Part shown: positions 11,372-16,795 of the stretch, one piece after another
How the letters are laid out: every line of letters starts with the position of its first letter
Numbering within the stretch: position 1 is the stretch's first letter
Source: Trueperaceae bacterium
GTDB lineage: Bacteria; Deinococcota; Deinococci; Deinococcales; Trueperaceae
Direction: 5' to 3'
Length of the DNA stretch: 39,626 nt
Assembly: GCA_007695125.1 (NCBI GenBank)
Contig: REEJ01000165.1
Coordinates: forward strand, 1-39,626
The notes under the pieces: model-generated
The model's database searches: none
The model's input: only the letters and a program-made list of their open reading frames with translations
Told to the model about the DNA's origin: nothing
Program-made: the position numbers and the translations under genes

Positions 11372-12580
11372 ATGCGCATCGCACTCTTCACGGAGACGTT
11401 CCTGCCCAAGATCGACGGGATCGTGACGAGGCTGGTGAGGACGCTCGATCACCTCGCCGACCTGGGCCACGAGGTGCTCCTCTTCGCACCGCACGATCCG
11501 CCGACGTCGTACGCCGGGCATCGCGTGGTCCCCGTGCCGGCGTTCTCGTTCCGACCGTGGTACCCCGAGCTGTTCCTGGGGTTGCCACGACCACGCCTCG
11601 GCCGCGAACTCGACGCCTTCGCCCCCGACGTCGTGCATGTGGTGAACCCGGTCATCCTCGGCCTGTGGGGCACGATGGTGGCGCGCCAGCGCGACCTGCC
11701 GCTGTTGGCCAGCTTCCACACCGACATCACCCAGTACGCGGTGCACCTGCGGCTCGCGTTCCTCGGCCCGATCTCGCGCGTGTTCCTGCGAGACGTCCAC
11801 AACCAGGCGCACGTGAACCTGTGCACGTCGCAGCCGATGGTCGATTCGGCGCGGGCCCTCGGCATCCGGCGCGTCCGCTTGTGGCCGAAGGCCGTCGACA
11901 CGGAGCGCTACCATCCGGGCCGGCGCGACCCAGCGATGCGCGCTCGGCTCAGCGACGGCCAGCCCGACGCGCCGCTGATGCTCTACGTCGGCAGGCTCTC
12001 GCACGAGAAGCGACTCGCTTGGCTCCTCGAGCCGCTGCGGCGCATGCCCGGCGTGCGGCTGGCGTTCGTGGGTTCGGGTCCAGCGGAGGCCGAGCTGCGA
12101 ACGCGCTTCGAGGGCACGCCGACGACGTTCATGGGCTACCTGGCGGGCGACGCGCTGGCGGCGGCGTACGCCTCGGCCGACGTGTTCGCCTTCCCCTCGG
12201 ACACCGAGACGCTCGGGTTCGTGGCGATGGAGTCGATGGCGTCCGGCGTGCCCGCCGTCGGCGCGCGCGCCGGCGGTGTCCCGGACGTGATCCGGCACCA
12301 GGAGAACGGTCTGCTGTTCGAGCCCGGCGACACCGACGACCTCACCGAGCAGCTGCGCCGGCTGCTGTTCGACACCGAGTTGCGCGCGCGCCTCGCGCAC
12401 GCCGCTCGCGCCGACATGGAGCGCTGGTCGTGGCGCGCCTCCACCGAGGCGCTGGTGTCGTACTACCGCAAGGCGCGCGAGGTCCACGCGCGCTTCGAAC
12501 CCCCGAGCGACGCGCGTCAGACGCGCGGCACCACCGTCGGACCGCGGGGCGAGTCGAAGACGTCGACCTCGGTGCGGTAG
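11372..12580 (+). CDS. sqdX: Family 4 glycosyltransferase, sulfoquinovosyl-diacylglycerol synthase (SqdX-like)
   Basis: The 402-residue enzyme is predicted to transfer sulfoquinovose from UDP-sulfoquinovose to diacylglycerol at the membrane, completing SQDG. It starts MRIALFTETFLPKIDGIVTRLVRTLDHL, the typical SqdX/MgtA N-terminus, with SFHTDITQY, LWPKAVDTERYHP, LYVGRLSHEKRLAWLLE and the GT4 acid/donor motif FPSDTETLGFVAMESMASGVPAVGARAGGVPDVI. It lies 18 nt after sqdB and is surely co-transcribed; AGGG at 11361-11364 is a weak Shine-Dalgarno. Its last 64 nt overlap the 3' end of btuD on the opposite strand, so the C-terminal tail (about 380-402) is coded antisense to the importer ATPase. Other GT4 mannosyl- or glucosyltransferases look similar, but the sqdB neighbour supports the call. 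Confidence 0.88.
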   Translation: MRIALFTETFLPKIDGIVTRLVRTLDHLADLGHEVLLFAPHDPPTSYAGHRVVPVPAFSFRPWYPELFLGLPRPRLGRELDAFAPDVVHVVNPVILGLWGTMVARQRDLPLLASFHTDITQYAVHLRLAFLGPISRVFLRDVHNQAHVNLCTSQPMVDSARALGIRRVRLWPKAVDTERYHPGRRDPAMRARLSDGQPDAPLMLYVGRLSHEKRLAWLLEPLRRMPGVRLAFVGSGPAEAELRTRFEGTPTTFMGYLAGDALAAAYASADVFAFPSDTETLGFVAMESMASGVPAVGARAGGVPDVIRHQENGLLFEPGDTDDLTEQLRRLLFDTELRARLAHAARADMERWSWRASTEALVSYYRKAREVHARFEPPSDARQTRGTTVGPRGESKTSTSVR

Positions 12581-13356
12581 GCGCGCTCGAGGCGGGAACG
12601 CACCAGCACCTGGCGCACGGTGCCGGCCGCGACCACACGGCCGTCGGTCAGCAGCAGCATCCGGTCACACGCCCGCGCAGCCAGGTTGAGGTCGTGGATG
12701 ACGAGCAGGACCCCGACACCGTCGGCGGCCGCTTGGCGCGCAGCACGCAGCAACTCGGCCTGGTAGCGCAGGTCGAGATGGCTGGTGGGCTCGTCGAGCA
12801 CGAGCACCCGCGGGCGCTGCGCCAGCGCCCGCGCCAACACCACGCGCTGACGCTCACCGCCCGACAGGTGCTCCACGGGTCGCTCCGCCAGACCCCACAC
12901 GCCCGTCTGCCGCATCGCACGCTCGACCTCGGCCTCGTCTTCGGCACTGGGACCACGCCAGGCGCGGACGAACGGGGTCCGTCCCATGCGCACGACCTCG
13001 CCGACCAGGAACCCGTCGGGCAGCGTCGCCGCCTGCGGCATCACCGCCAGGCGGCGCGCCAACGCGCGCCGACCCAAGCTCGCCAGCGGCGCTCCGTCGA
13101 CCCACACACTGCCCGACTGGACGGCCAACACCTTGCTGATCACATGCACCAGCGTGGACTTCCCCGCGCCGTTCGGTCCGATGATGCCGAGGACCTCGCC
13201 GGCGCGCACCTCCAGGTCGACGCCGTGCAACACGGGTCGCGCGCCGTACCCGGCGTGCACGCCCTCCAGCCGCAGCACGTCGGGCGCGGCGGAGGCCATG
13301 AGCGCGTCGGTCGCCCCGCGACCCGCCGCGACGCTGGGCGCCACGACGTCCGTCAT
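12517..13356 (-). CDS. btuD: Cobalamin ABC transporter ATP-binding protein
   Basis: This 279-residue ATPase powers the B12 importer. Walker A is GPNGAGKS (about 60-67), the Q loop is VMPQAA, the signature is HLSGGERQRVVLARALAQ, Walker B is VLVLDEPTSHLD and the switch histidine is in LVIHDLNLA. This order and spacing fit the BtuD/FecE/FhuC family. The ATG at 13356 overlaps the TGA of btuC (ATGA). The N-terminal 27 residues before VLRLEGVHAGYG are an extension of low complexity. The family alone cannot tell B12 from haem or ferric siderophore, but the cobalamin riboswitch ahead of the operon settles it in favour of B12. The 3' end overlaps the sqdX 3' end on the other strand. Confidence 0.93.
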   Translation of the reverse strand: MTDVVAPSVAAGRGATDALMASAAPDVLRLEGVHAGYGARPVLHGVDLEVRAGEVLGIIGPNGAGKSTLVHVISKVLAVQSGSVWVDGAPLASLGRRALARRLAVMPQAATLPDGFLVGEVVRMGRTPFVRAWRGPSAEDEAEVERAMRQTGVWGLAERPVEHLSGGERQRVVLARALAQRPRVLVLDEPTSHLDLRYQAELLRAARQAAADGVGVLLVIHDLNLAARACDRMLLLTDGRVVAAGTVRQVLVRSRLERAYRTEVDVFDSPRGPTVVPRV

Positions 13357-14438
13357 GCCGCGCTCCGACGCCGCAGCAGCACGAGGAAGAAGGGCGCACC
13401 GACCAGCGCGGTGACCACGCCCACCGGAAGCTCGGCGGGTGCGATCACGGTGCGAGCCACCAGGTCGGCGAGCACCATGAAGCCGGCGCCCCACACCGCC
13501 GCGAGCGGCACGAGGCGACGATGGTCCGGGCCGAACGCCAGCCGGACGGCGTGCGGCACCACCAGGCCCACGAAGCCGATCACGCCGGCGACGCTGACGG
13601 CCGCGGCCGTCGCCAGCGTGCCGGCCAACACCACGCCGAGCTTGAGCGCCTCCACCGACACGCCGAGGTGGGCGGCGGCGAGCTCGCCGAGTTGCAGCAC
13701 GTCGAGTGCCCGCGCGGCGGCGAGCATGCCGGCGGCCGCAACGAGCACGAGCGGCAGCAGGCTGCCGACACGGTCCCACGACGCGAACGCCAGGCTCCCC
13801 AGGAGCCAGGTGAGGATCCCGGCCGCCTGCTCGCGCGCGGCGAGCAGCACGAACGACGTCCCGGCGGCCAGACACGAGCCGATCACGACGCCGGCCAGCA
13901 CCAGCGGCACCACCGGTAGGGTCCAACCGCGCCGAGCCAGCGCCACCACCGCCAGCACCGTGAGCGTCGCCCCGACGAACGCGGCGGCGCTCACGCTGAA
14001 AGCGCCGAGCACGCCGAGCGTTCCACCCGCCACCATCACCAACGCGGCGGCGAAGCCCGCGCCGCTGGCGGCGCCGAGCAGGTACGGGTCGGCCAACGGG
14101 TTGCGGAACACGCCCTGGAAGCCCGCGCCAGCCAGCGCCAAGGCGGCCCCGACGAGCGCGGCCAACACCACGCGCGGCAACCGGATCTGCCACACGATCG
14201 TGTCGATCACGCGCTGGCCTGCGTCGACGGGCACGCTCGGCGCCAGCCCGAACGCAGCCCGGACGCTCCCCTCGATCCCCCGCACCGTGGCGGCCGTGAC
14301 GTCGGCGGGACCGATACGCACGCTGCCGATGCCAGCGGCGAGCACCACCACCAGGCCCAGGGCGAGCGTCGACAGCGCCAAGGGGCGGGTCAGGCGCCGC
14401 ACCGCGACGCCAGCGCTGCTCACGCGAGCCACGCTCAC
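13353..14438 (-). CDS. btuC: Cobalamin ABC transporter permease
   Basis: The 361-residue permease belongs to the FecCD/BtuC family, which forms a homodimeric channel of about ten helices per subunit. Visible family motifs are LPRVVLAALVGAALALAGAGFQGVFRNPLADPYLLGAASGAG, the LLGSLAFASWD region, GVIGFVGLVVPHAVRLAFGPDHRRLVPLAAVWGAGFMVLADLVART (coupling-helix region) and PVGVVTALVGAPFFLVLLRRR at the C-terminus. The start is GTG 14438; AGGAG lies 8 nt upstream, in the 25-nt gap after btuF. It overlaps btuD by ATGA. The operon is btuF-btuC-btuD under one riboswitch. Confidence 0.95.
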   Translation of the reverse strand: MSVARVSSAGVAVRRLTRPLALSTLALGLVVVLAAGIGSVRIGPADVTAATVRGIEGSVRAAFGLAPSVPVDAGQRVIDTIVWQIRLPRVVLAALVGAALALAGAGFQGVFRNPLADPYLLGAASGAGFAAALVMVAGGTLGVLGAFSVSAAAFVGATLTVLAVVALARRGWTLPVVPLVLAGVVIGSCLAAGTSFVLLAAREQAAGILTWLLGSLAFASWDRVGSLLPLVLVAAAGMLAAARALDVLQLGELAAAHLGVSVEALKLGVVLAGTLATAAAVSVAGVIGFVGLVVPHAVRLAFGPDHRRLVPLAAVWGAGFMVLADLVARTVIAPAELPVGVVTALVGAPFFLVLLRRRSAA

Positions 14439-14463: not shown

Positions 14464-15390
14464 TCAGAACATCTCCGGGTGCAGGATGCGGGCCAGCAGG
14501 TGCAGCGCCTCGCCGATGCGGGGGCCGGCCCGGCTCATGACGTCGCTCTGGTCCTGCGTGAGCTCGATCACGCGTCCGTCGACGACCGCCGCGATCCCGG
14601 CCCAGCCCGGGCGCTCCGCCACCATCTCGGCGCTCACGCCGTACGGGGCGTCGGCGAGGACGATCACCTGGGGATCGGACGCGACCACGAACTCGGGATC
14701 GACGAGCGGGAAGTCGCCGAGCTCGGCGGGCACGATGTTGGCGCCCCCAGCGAGCGCGATGAGGGTGCCGATGAAGCCGTCGGGCCCGACGCTGTACGGT
14801 GACGGGTCGACCTCGTAGAACACGGTGGGGCGCTCACGGCCGGCGACCAGAGCGGCCACGCCGTCGAGTTCGCCGCGCAGCCGCCCACGCAGCAGCGCCG
14901 CCTCGTCCGGTGTTCCGAGCAGCAGCGCGAGACGATCGATCACCTCGAACACCTCCTCGAGACGCTGCGGGGTGCCGGCGTAGACGGGGATGCCGAGCGG
15001 CGCCAAGGCGTCGGCCGCGCCGCTGTACTCGTCGACCAACACGAGATCGGGGCGCAGGGCGACGAGCGCTTCGAGGTCGGGCGCGAAGGCGCTGCCGAGC
15101 TCGGGAAGGTCCAGCACGACGAGCGGGTAGTTGCTGAACGCGTCGCGGCCCACGAGCCGCTCGCACGCGCCCAGCGCGCACACCGTCTCGGTGTGGCTCG
15201 GGACCAACGAGACGACGCGCTGCGGCGCCGCCTCGAGCCGCACCTCGCGGCCGAGGTCGTCGACGACGGTCACCGGCCAGGCCGCGAACGCGACCCCCAG
15301 CCACGTCAGGGTGGCGACGAGGGCGACCAGCATGGACGCACGCGCCACGCGAGGGTGAGAGAAACGGTCGGGTGTCTGGATGGATCGCAT
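14464..15390 (-). CDS. btuF: Cobalamin-binding periplasmic/surface protein
   Basis: This 308-residue substrate-binding protein delivers B12 to BtuCD. A signal-anchor or signal peptide covers residues 1-36 (...ASMLVALVATLTWLGVAFA), with no lipobox cysteine, so it is likely a secreted or N-terminally anchored protein. The mature part shows the class III fold landmarks: PVTVVDDLGREVRLEAAPQRVVSLVPSHTETVCALGACERLVGRDAFSNYP, then PDLVLVDEYSGA, VYAGTPQRLEEVFEVIDRLALLLG, GANIVPAELGDFPLVDPEFVVASDPQVIVLAD and the C-terminal MSRAGPRIGEALHLLARILHPEMF. The start at ATG 15390 follows GGAGG (spacing 7); the reading frame stays open upstream, but that sequence is the riboswitch leader. Confidence 0.92.
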   Translation of the reverse strand: MRSIQTPDRFSHPRVARASMLVALVATLTWLGVAFAAWPVTVVDDLGREVRLEAAPQRVVSLVPSHTETVCALGACERLVGRDAFSNYPLVVLDLPELGSAFAPDLEALVALRPDLVLVDEYSGAADALAPLGIPVYAGTPQRLEEVFEVIDRLALLLGTPDEAALLRGRLRGELDGVAALVAGRERPTVFYEVDPSPYSVGPDGFIGTLIALAGGANIVPAELGDFPLVDPEFVVASDPQVIVLADAPYGVSAEMVAERPGWAGIAAVVDGRVIELTQDQSDVMSRAGPRIGEALHLLARILHPEMF

Positions 15391-15397
15391 CACAAGG

Positions 15398-15409
15398 CCT
15401 CCGGAGGCG
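15398..15409 (-). promoter_or_regulatory. Palindrome containing the btuF Shine-Dalgarno
   Basis: GCCTCCGGAGGC is a perfect 12-nt palindrome 7 nt before the btuF ATG. It pairs the GGAGG ribosome site with an adjacent CCTCC. Folding it would hide the ribosome site, which suggests a translational expression platform for the riboswitch. Confidence 0.5.
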
Positions 15410-15424
15410 CTTGCGAGTCGGGAA

Positions 15425-15450
15425 CGTCCGTCGACTGGGTCGACCGGACG
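15425..15450 (-). promoter_or_regulatory. Stem-loop in the btuF leader between aptamer and start
   Basis: On the minus strand CGTCC-G-GTCGA-CCCAG-TCGAC-GGACG pairs 5+5 bp with one bulged G. It is not followed by a U tract, so it is not an obvious terminator. It may be part of the riboswitch expression platform. Confidence 0.4.
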
Positions 15451-15510
15451 GCAAGCGAACGACCGTAGCCGCCGCGTGCTGCCCTTCCTCGTCCGCGCAA
15501 GGGGTGCAGT

Positions 15511-15601
15511 CGTTCGCGTGCGGCATTCGGGCTCGCCCCGTGAGGGGACCACCGTTGCGGGACAGCGCCGGGTTCACACCGGACTTCCCCACACGCGAAC
15601 G
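15511..15601 (-). ncRNA. Cobalamin riboswitch aptamer
   Basis: Read on the minus strand, this stretch carries the B12 riboswitch core: GGGGAAGTCCGGTGTGAACC, then GCTGTCCCGCAACGGT, then GAGCCCGAATGCCGC. These match the conserved GGGAA...GGTG...AA.CC, GCTG.CCCGCAACGGT and AG.CCGAA.ACC.GC blocks. The ends pair as a perfect 10-bp P1 helix (CGTTCGCGTG, 15592-15601, with CACGCGAACG, 15511-15520). At about 91 nt the aptamer is compact. It is followed by about 120 nt of leader and then btuF, so it should repress the importer when B12 is plentiful. Confidence 0.92.
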
Positions 15602-15606
15602 TCTGC

Positions 15607-15636
15607 AGCCTACGCCCGCGCCGGGCGGATGGTCAA
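15607..15636 (-). promoter_or_regulatory. Promoter of the riboswitch-btuFCD operon
   Basis: TTGACC (15631-15636) and TAGGCT (15607-15612) are separated by 18 nt on the minus strand. The predicted transcription start, about 15600, falls exactly at the first base of the riboswitch P1 helix. Confidence 0.7.
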
Positions 15637-15679
15637 CGGTCGCTGCGCACGCCGCACGGCGCCGGGCACCGACCCGTGG

Positions 15680-15685
15680 TAGTTT
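15680..15685 (+). promoter_or_regulatory. Leaderless-type -10 of the ZapE-like gene
   Basis: TAGTTT ends 6 nt before GTG 15692 and no Shine-Dalgarno is present, so the transcript would begin at the GTG. The promoter is divergent from that of btuFCD. Confidence 0.6.
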
Positions 15686-15691
15686 TCGCGC

Positions 15692-16795
15692 GTGCTGCGC
15701 CTCGACGACCTCCCGGCGCTCACGCGCACCGACGCCGCCGCGTTCACGCCGCCGCCGCGCTTCGGCACCGTCGATCTGGCCGGCTTCCGGACACCGCACC
15801 CGAGCCAGGCGTTGGCCAAGGAGCGCGTGCGCGCCTTCGCCGGCGCCTGCCGCGATCACGACGAGCGCACGCCAGGGTGGTGGCCGTTCACGCGCCGCAC
15901 CCGCGACGTCGGGCGCAGCGGCCTCTACCTCGACGGCGGCTTCGGGGTCGGCAAGACCCACCTGCTCGCAGCGGCGTACGGCCTCGCACCGACGTCGTCG
16001 AAGCGCTACGTGTCGTTCCAGCAACTCGTGCACGTGATCGGCGTGCTCGGCATGCCCGCCGCCAAGGAGCGCATCGCGCACGTGCGCCTGCTGTGCCTCG
16101 ACGAGTTCGAGCTCGACGACCCGGGCAACACGCTCATCGTGAAGACCTTCCTCGCCGCCGTGTTCGAGCGCGGTGGTTCGGTGATCACCACGTCCAACAC
16201 CGCCCCGGAAGCGCAAGGGCGGGGACGCTTCGACGCGGAGCACTTCCGGCGCGAGATCCAGTCGATCGCGGAGCGCTTCGAGGTCGTGAGCATCGACGGC
16301 CCCGACGCCCGCACCAGCACCGACGAGGGCGGCATCATGCGCCCGGACGAGCTCCCGGGCGGCAGCGCCCATCGGGTTCGGACCGATTGGGACGCTCTGC
16401 TGGCCCACCTCCGGCGCCACCACCCGGCGCGCTATCGCGCCCAACTCGAGATGGTGGATGGCATCGCCGTGGCCGGGGCGCGGCGGCTCGACGACCAGAA
16501 CGACGCGCTGCGCTTCGTGCACTTCGTCGACACCCTCTACGACCTGCGCGTCCCGCTGTGGCTCGCGGCGCCGGACGGCGCCGCGGAGGCCGGCGCCGCG
16601 GAGGCCGCCCCGCTCGACGACCCGCTCGACGACCCGTTCGACCTGTTCGCCCCGAGCTATCGGGACGGTGCGTACGCGAAGAAGTACCGGCGCTGCGCGT
16701 CGCGCCTCGCGGAGGTGTCGCACGAGGCGCGTGCGCTGCACGTCGCCGCGACGCACCCGCGGCGACGCGACGCTCGGGCCCGAGCGTCGACCTAG
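15692..16795 (+). CDS. zapE: ZapE/AFG1-type ATPase
   Basis: The 367-residue AAA+ ATPase belongs to the AFG1/ZapE family (ZapE modulates the FtsZ ring; mitochondrial AFG1 acts on respiratory-chain proteins). Key features are PPPRFGTVDLAGFRTPHPSQALA, Walker A GGFGVGKTH (82-90), Walker B LLCLDEFELDDPGNT (family signature DEF), the sensor segment GGSVITTSNTAPEAQ and a C-terminal FVHFVDTLYDLRVPLWLAA block. A short insert near residues 295-320 is coded by two tandem repeats (a 15-bp unit twice at 16576-16605 and a 12-bp unit twice at 16609-16632), giving GAAEAGAAEA and LDDPLDDP. The GTG start follows a leaderless-type -10. The stop overlaps that of the convergent LpxB-related gene within CTAG. Confidence 0.88.
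   Translation: MLRLDDLPALTRTDAAAFTPPPRFGTVDLAGFRTPHPSQALAKERVRAFAGACRDHDERTPGWWPFTRRTRDVGRSGLYLDGGFGVGKTHLLAAAYGLAPTSSKRYVSFQQLVHVIGVLGMPAAKERIAHVRLLCLDEFELDDPGNTLIVKTFLAAVFERGGSVITTSNTAPEAQGRGRFDAEHFRREIQSIAERFEVVSIDGPDARTSTDEGGIMRPDELPGGSAHRVRTDWDALLAHLRRHHPARYRAQLEMVDGIAVAGARRLDDQNDALRFVHFVDTLYDLRVPLWLAAPDGAAEAGAAEAAPLDDPLDDPFDLFAPSYRDGAYAKKYRRCASRLAEVSHEARALHVAATHPRRRDARARAST
16576..16632 (+). repeat. Two short in-frame tandem repeats inside the ZapE-like gene
   Basis: The 15-bp unit CGGCGCCGCGGAGGC is present twice (16576-16605). Shortly after it, the 12-bp unit CCCGCTCGACGA is present twice (16609-16632) with a degenerate third partial copy. Both keep the reading frame and code a flexible acidic linker. 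Confidence 0.75.

Follow-up and report, generated by a model that had tools for sequence, protein, structure and literature searches.

A compact cobalamin riboswitch upstream of btuF in Trueperaceae and a docking hairpin that may also carry its anti-anti-SD strand

Background

How can a riboswitch control its gene when a strand able to mask the ribosome-binding site is built into every transcript? This question is raised by the minus-strand leader of btuF in a contig of a Trueperaceae bacterium, a 39,626-nt stretch of which, referred to here as the window, was analysed. The initial annotation described a short cobalamin aptamer and a Shine-Dalgarno (SD) sequence that is part of its own masking structure, and argued that the ligand would have to bias a competing fold.

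Riboswitch expression platforms are usually too variable for covariation to be used. The platform described here can be aligned over ~80 nt across a whole bacterial family, which makes it possible to identify the competing strands and put them to the test. If the proposal made below is true, it shows one docking hairpin serving both strands of a switch, and the loss of a terminator while translational control stays. Its value is that of a useful test case and not of a new principle.

The aptamer, its promoter and its operon

Within the 39.6-kb window Rfam has a single match, to RF00174 (15611-15502, minus strand, E 1.5e-5). The covariance search covers the full model, positions 1-189, and scores above the gathering score of 31.5 bits. 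P1 is formed by CGTTCGCGTG/CACGCGAACG, in which 15601-15592 pair with 15520-15511, closing exactly 91 nt, the approximate size estimated initially. Comparison with the model finds neither a P2 arm nor a P7-P11 arm, peripheral elements that, with the joining region, set the sub-class (Class I / IIa / IIb) and its preference for AdoCbl or for MeCbl/HyCbl, and P6 is capped by a short CCCC-UCAC-GGGG hairpin. The small aptamer is not peculiar to the window, as several relatives have Rfam matches of 109-114 nt.

15511-15601, minus strand: cobalamin aptamer, P1 to P1, 91 nt (RF00174, 35.4 bits)
15558-15562, minus strand: L5, UCCCG, a loop predicted to dock on L13; identical to the L5 consensus given in PMC10653944
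15607-15636, minus strand: promoter, with a -35 element TTGACC (15636-15631), an 18-nt spacer and a -10 element TAGGCT (15612-15607), from sequence and conservation
14464-15393, minus strand: btuF, GTG start, periplasmic binding protein (PF01497), from the domain match and orthologues in the family
13353-14438, minus strand: btuC, FecCD (PF01032), from the domain match
12517-13359, minus strand: btuD-like ABC ATPase (PF00005), from the domain match; start tentative

Two further marks of the cobalamin class are present: a C-rich L5 with a partner loop, L13, on the 3' side of P1 (from sequence and conservation), and B12-related genes downstream, the homologues of btuF, btuC and btuD. Judged from its sequence, the element is a compact cobalamin riboswitch (RF00174) that precedes btuF-btuC-btuD and would bind B12. 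A single-program fold of the whole leader was set aside: its minimum-energy structure lacks the cobalamin core because the pseudoknot and the ligand are not modelled.

A scan for consensus promoters made no call at the riboswitch because TAGGCT, with 3/6 matches to TATAAT, falls below its threshold. Conservation of place across species was used instead. Of 34 homologous leaders, 32 have the pattern TTGACN-(16-19)-TANNNT at the same place, compared with 3 of 3,452 control windows, which upholds the promoter initially described as abutting P1. Five bases separate TAGGCT from P1 (about 5-6 nt from promoter end to P1). Transcription had been said to start exactly on the first base of P1; a start there or within about 2 nt of it is plausible from the sequence. 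On the plus strand, a gene for a ZapE-type ATPase (15692-16795) lies back to back with the promoter, ~55 bases apart (15640-15692).

The GTG at 15393-15391 is the conserved start of btuF, the relatives reading GTGAAG or GTGAAC. It is a likelier start than the ATG at 15390, which is optional.

The leader family

RF00174 was matched in 52 of the 61 relatives searched, with btuF orthologues behind the matches, and 34 btuF-type leaders were gathered from 16 genera of Trueperaceae. The same leader occurs in named records, which are Trueperaceae metagenome bins. The P13 motif, searched across all genome contigs, was found in 22 stretches, 17 of them in records of Trueperaceae, Truepera or the Deinococcales/Thermus group. 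No cobalamin riboswitch lies near the remaining five, which were taken as chance. A CGC motif served as the anchor for the second alignment block; it was located by pattern in 28 leaders and by hand in 6. The leaders are related by descent, and the alignment cells counted below are not independent events.

The P13 hairpin and the sequester hairpin

The platform begins with a hairpin next to P1.

15479-15509, minus strand: P13 hairpin, CUGC-A-CC-CCUUG-[CGCGGA]-CGAGG-AA-GG-GCAG, from conservation of pairing
15492-15497, minus strand: L13, CGCGGA; CG[AC]GGA in 34/34 leaders

Over 27 distinct sequences 87.2% of the P13 cells are paired, compared with 36-57% in slid controls. The family form is CUGC-A-CC-CCUUG-[CGMGGA]-CGAGG-AA-GG-GCAG. 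The inner stem can form in almost all leaders, and the letters of the outer stem vary between them (e.g. CACCG/CGGUG, GACC/GGUC). L13, read as CG-(N)-GGA, could form five pairs with L5 UCCCG, leaving one base bulged. A bulge in the L5-L13 contact has been reported as the source of its B12 dependence (PMC10907184).

The second hairpin of the platform covers the start of btuF.

15391-15415, minus strand: sequester hairpin, CGCAAG-C-GCCU-CCGG-AGGC-CUUGUG, over the SD and the GTG, from the predicted fold and conservation of pairs
15410-15415, minus strand: anti-SD/anti-start hexamer CGCAAG, common to both folds; CGC in 34/34 leaders, neighbours varying
15397-15408, minus strand: palindrome GCCTCCGGAGGC, in three genomes only (G000, G001 and G004)
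15402-15398, minus strand: SD, GGAGG, within the palindrome

On its own the sequester hairpin has a predicted energy of -11.9 kcal/mol. GGAGG does lie inside the perfect palindrome that had been reported, GCCTCCGGAGGC; the palindrome as such is not the masking device. Its centre, TCCGGA, is found in 3 of the 34 leaders, and elsewhere the centre is CTTGGA, CTCGGA, CACGGA, CATGGA, CGAGGA and others. What is conserved is the longer hairpin CGCAAGcGCC-NNNGGA-GGCCUUGUG, with CGCAAG-GCC on one side and GGC-CUUGUG on the other, in which the SD is paired and, in most species, a GTG start as well. From this comparison, the palindrome is a local accident, the form that the sequester hairpin takes in three close genomes.

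Sequester pairing was scored on a hand alignment of 27 leaders. Exchanges of A-U for G-C occur in 4 genera, with one of G-C for A-U; the hairpin reads, for example, CAGGA.ACC/GGU.UCCUG in G015. In the remaining 7 leaders, mostly of genera g8 and g5, such a hairpin is not clearly recognisable.

The competing helix

The 5' strand of P13, together with the first bases of L13, forms a near copy of the sequence at the btuF start, and the same anti-SD hexamer can pair with either.

15496-15501, minus strand: anti-anti-SD strand CUUGCG, the 5' strand of P13 and the first two bases of L13, from complementarity and controls

The strand CUUGCG (15501-15496) is complementary to CGCAAG (15415-15410) in 200 of 204 cells over 34 leaders from 16 genera, and pairing of CGCAAG with it and with the start are mutually exclusive. 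The competing fold that the initial annotation had called for can be recognised here. In an 8-bp form this antisequester helix is paired in 89.8% of cells over 27 distinct composite sequences, and in 8-62% when the partner is slid. Eight of its cells are altered on both sides, and the covariation score is above all of 500 shuffles. One exchange, U-A to C-G, occurs in 4 leaders of two genera. Part of the invariance of CGC is by construction because the alignment block was anchored on it, and this favours the antisequester helix.

In leaders that start with GTG, pairing of CGC with GUG would by itself conserve CGC. The case for the antisequester helix leans for this reason on two other observations. 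CGC is also retained in leaders with an ATG start, where the predicted sequester hairpin leaves it unused. Furthermore, in the column of the L13 bulge base A faces U in 11 of the 27 distinct sequences and C faces G in 5, from four genera; the window itself is mismatched (C-U) there. This exchange is explained only by the antisequester helix because the base is bulged in the kissing contact, lies outside the sequester hairpin and is not demanded by P13. When each leader is tested singly, the P13 strand of most GC-rich leaders complements the hexamer no better than shuffled queries do; it is position, and conservation from species to species, on which the case rests.

The same observations bear on a simpler account, in which P13/L13 docks on L5 in the presence of B12, the sequester hairpin follows or is sterically blocked, and the match of CUUGCG with CGCAAG is a by-product without a role of two conserved hairpins. 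P13 and the sequester hairpin are each independently well conserved, the CUUG of P13 by itself resembles that at the start, and control by docking alone is known for env8 (PMC10907184). Against this account stand the CGC kept where the sequester leaves it unused, the covariation of the L13 bulge base with the base before CGC, and the dominance of CUUGCG:CGCAAG in the nascent folds of 30/34 leaders, which together make it unlikely.

The nascent folds are those of RNA ending before the SD. When this RNA is folded without constraints, the minimum-energy structure of the 30 leaders includes the antisequester helix; its mean probability is 0.87, compared with 0.25 when the hexamer is shuffled. In the window, too, pairing of the anti-SD strand of the nascent RNA with the P13 strand has a predicted probability of 0.87. 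At full length, 12 of the 34 leaders still favour the antisequester fold. The leader of the window favours the masked fold by 8.6 kcal/mol, and those of its genus do so by 6.6-10.1, so that equilibrium folding alone would keep the start masked with or without B12. The decision would therefore have to fall, in this genus, during transcription or early ribosome loading. The self-masking described initially holds for the finished transcript of the genus, in which the masked fold is ahead, but the anti-SD is not simply always present, as the predicted folds of the nascent RNA indicate. Even in the antisequester fold of the window, a 4-bp hairpin, GCCU/AGGC, is predicted over the SD.

This energetic bias, and an antisequester probability of 0.00 in the full leader, would also be expected if the stronger, palindromic sequester hairpin of the genus always masked btuF, leaving expression low and independent of B12. 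A leader that is closed permanently, or nearly so, is very improbable: P13, L13, the hexamer and the promoter are identical letter for letter within the genus, which is unexpected for a dead switch, and the antisequester helix, dominant until the SD has been transcribed, would still allow control during transcription.

The proposed switch

The leader is probably a cobalamin OFF-switch of btuF-btuC-btuD, mainly translational, that acts by strand exchange of CGCAAG. Two nearly identical sequences, CUUGUG (15396-15391) and CUUGCG (15501-15496), would be the alternative partners of this hexamer (15415-15410). Pairing with CUUGUG, together with GCC/GGC, would hide the SD and the start codon, and pairing with CUUGCG would free the start. 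When B12 is bound, the L5-L13 kissing contact would hold P13 closed, CUUGCG would be unavailable and the start would be masked. Without B12, P13 would open and CUUGCG would capture CGCAAG. The SD is paired in one predicted fold, and a competing fold is conserved, as expected of a translational riboswitch; predicted folds and covariation lend moderate support to the translational control, by sequestering of the SD, that had been suggested. The opposite direction, activation by B12, was rejected, since the genes serve uptake and locking of P13 would mask the SD and not free it.

These relationships suggest that the hairpin predicted to dock on the B12-bound sensor also bears the strand that would uncover the ribosome-binding site without B12.

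The middle stem

A further stem had been noted at 15425-15450, between the aptamer and the SD. It is present.

15425-15451, minus strand: middle stem-loop, at the site of the relatives' intrinsic terminator, without a U-tract; fold -16.1 kcal/mol
15450-15484, minus strand: antiterminator-like hairpin GGGCAG...CUUGCC using the 3' strand of P13, a predicted fold

No terminator-like site, that is no GC stem followed by a U-run, was found in 15300-15750, in agreement with the first reading of the sequence. By a strict rule, 4 of the 34 relatives (G014, G008, G020 and G007) have a terminator with a U-run at the place of the middle stem, and G011 and G017 look terminator-like there by eye. The antiterminator-like pairing is kept with other letters in G011, G014 and G007, also by eye. 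The strand exchange may thus have a second half: without B12 the other strand of P13 (GGCAG) would pair with CUUGCC beside the middle stem. This pairing would be the remnant of an antiterminator, of the kind expected in relatives whose terminator persists at that site, and the counterpart of the antiterminator of Priestia megaterium metE (PMC10653944).

Tentatively, P13 of Trueperaceae can be viewed as a two-way distributor that offers the anti-anti-SD on its 5' strand (plus L13) and an antiterminator on its 3' strand. One docking event would then govern translation and, in lineages with a U-tract, termination via two separate downstream hairpins; in the genus of the window the U-tract would have disappeared, with the translational half remaining.

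That control is mainly transcriptional, with the middle stem (15451-15425) acting as a terminator or a Rho-dependent site under the P13 3' strand and the sequester hairpin being secondary, is most improbable in a window with neither a U-tract nor a terminator-like site, even though the relatives just named have a terminator there (four by the strict rule, two more by eye) and a P13 3' strand antiterminator is proven in Priestia megaterium metE (PMC10653944).

An anti-P1 element was also considered. Positions 15452-15460 (GTCGTTCGC) match the 3' strand of P1 (GCGAACGAC) by eye; the candidate was dropped, as the site is not kept in relatives.

Relation to known systems

In E. coli btuB and in env8 the kissing contact stabilises P13 and promotes the hairpin at the ribosome-binding site (PMC10653944), and btuB has anti-SD/anti-anti-SD strands (PMC11162775). 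E. coli btuB resembles the Trueperaceae leader in its cobalamin aptamer, its L5-L13 kissing contact, its separate hairpin at the ribosome-binding site (P14), its anti-SD/anti-anti-SD pairing and the repression of an uptake gene by the cofactor (PMC11162775, PMC10653944). Its aptamer, however, is much larger, and the likeness is drawn on the logic of the strands and not base by base on the source of the anti-anti-SD.

The closest precedent of this logic is metE of M. tuberculosis, in which L13 overlaps the anti-anti-TIR (PMC11260477). Its sister ppe2 has a fused P1-P3 arm and a truncated P6 extension and is compact like the Trueperaceae aptamer. The metE and ppe2 switches differ in their target genes and in having uORFs, and the passages of that source compared here report neither an antiterminator from the P13 3' strand nor family-wide covariation.

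In metE of P. megaterium the 3' strand of P13 pairs with the 5' side of the terminator region as an antiterminator, and L5 is UCCCG; control is transcriptional only, and no SD sequester uses the P13 5' strand (PMC10653944). The dual transcription/translation platforms described by Barrick and Breaker (2007, PMC2258182) likewise put a terminator and masking of the SD under the control of one aptamer. In those platforms the SD is contained in the 3' side of the terminator, whereas the Trueperaceae relatives with a terminator have it and the SD hairpin as two separate elements.

The openly licensed papers compared here describe no case in which the two strands of one P13 serve separate downstream hairpins, and no riboswitch platform that covaries across a family. 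The Trueperaceae leader would appear to join a known class and a known logic, that of E. coli btuB and M. tuberculosis metE, in a new wiring, for which no priority is claimed.

Other cobalamin leaders

The genome of the window has a second RF00174 riboswitch (L036; C342:3220-3370, within C342:1600-4600; 41.1 bits), which precedes a ribonucleotide reductase gene (PF02867). Its platform is unlike that of btuF, as a P13-like hairpin directly adjoins the SD.

Several btuF-type leaders have unusual surroundings. In G022 the next full gene after such a leader (L050, around 616-987) is btuC, with only a short open frame between them, as though the switch had lost its btuF. G018 has two btuF-type leaders (L056 and L046), one of which precedes a match to the N-terminal part of BtuF only. 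A leader of a third type (L037, G026) is followed by a frame that is unlike btuF and may break off soon after its start.

In other families of the order, four leaders (L005, L006, L013 and L016) have a strong hairpin over GGAGG, and some of them a terminator. Given these leaders, the layout with two hairpins may predate the family Trueperaceae.
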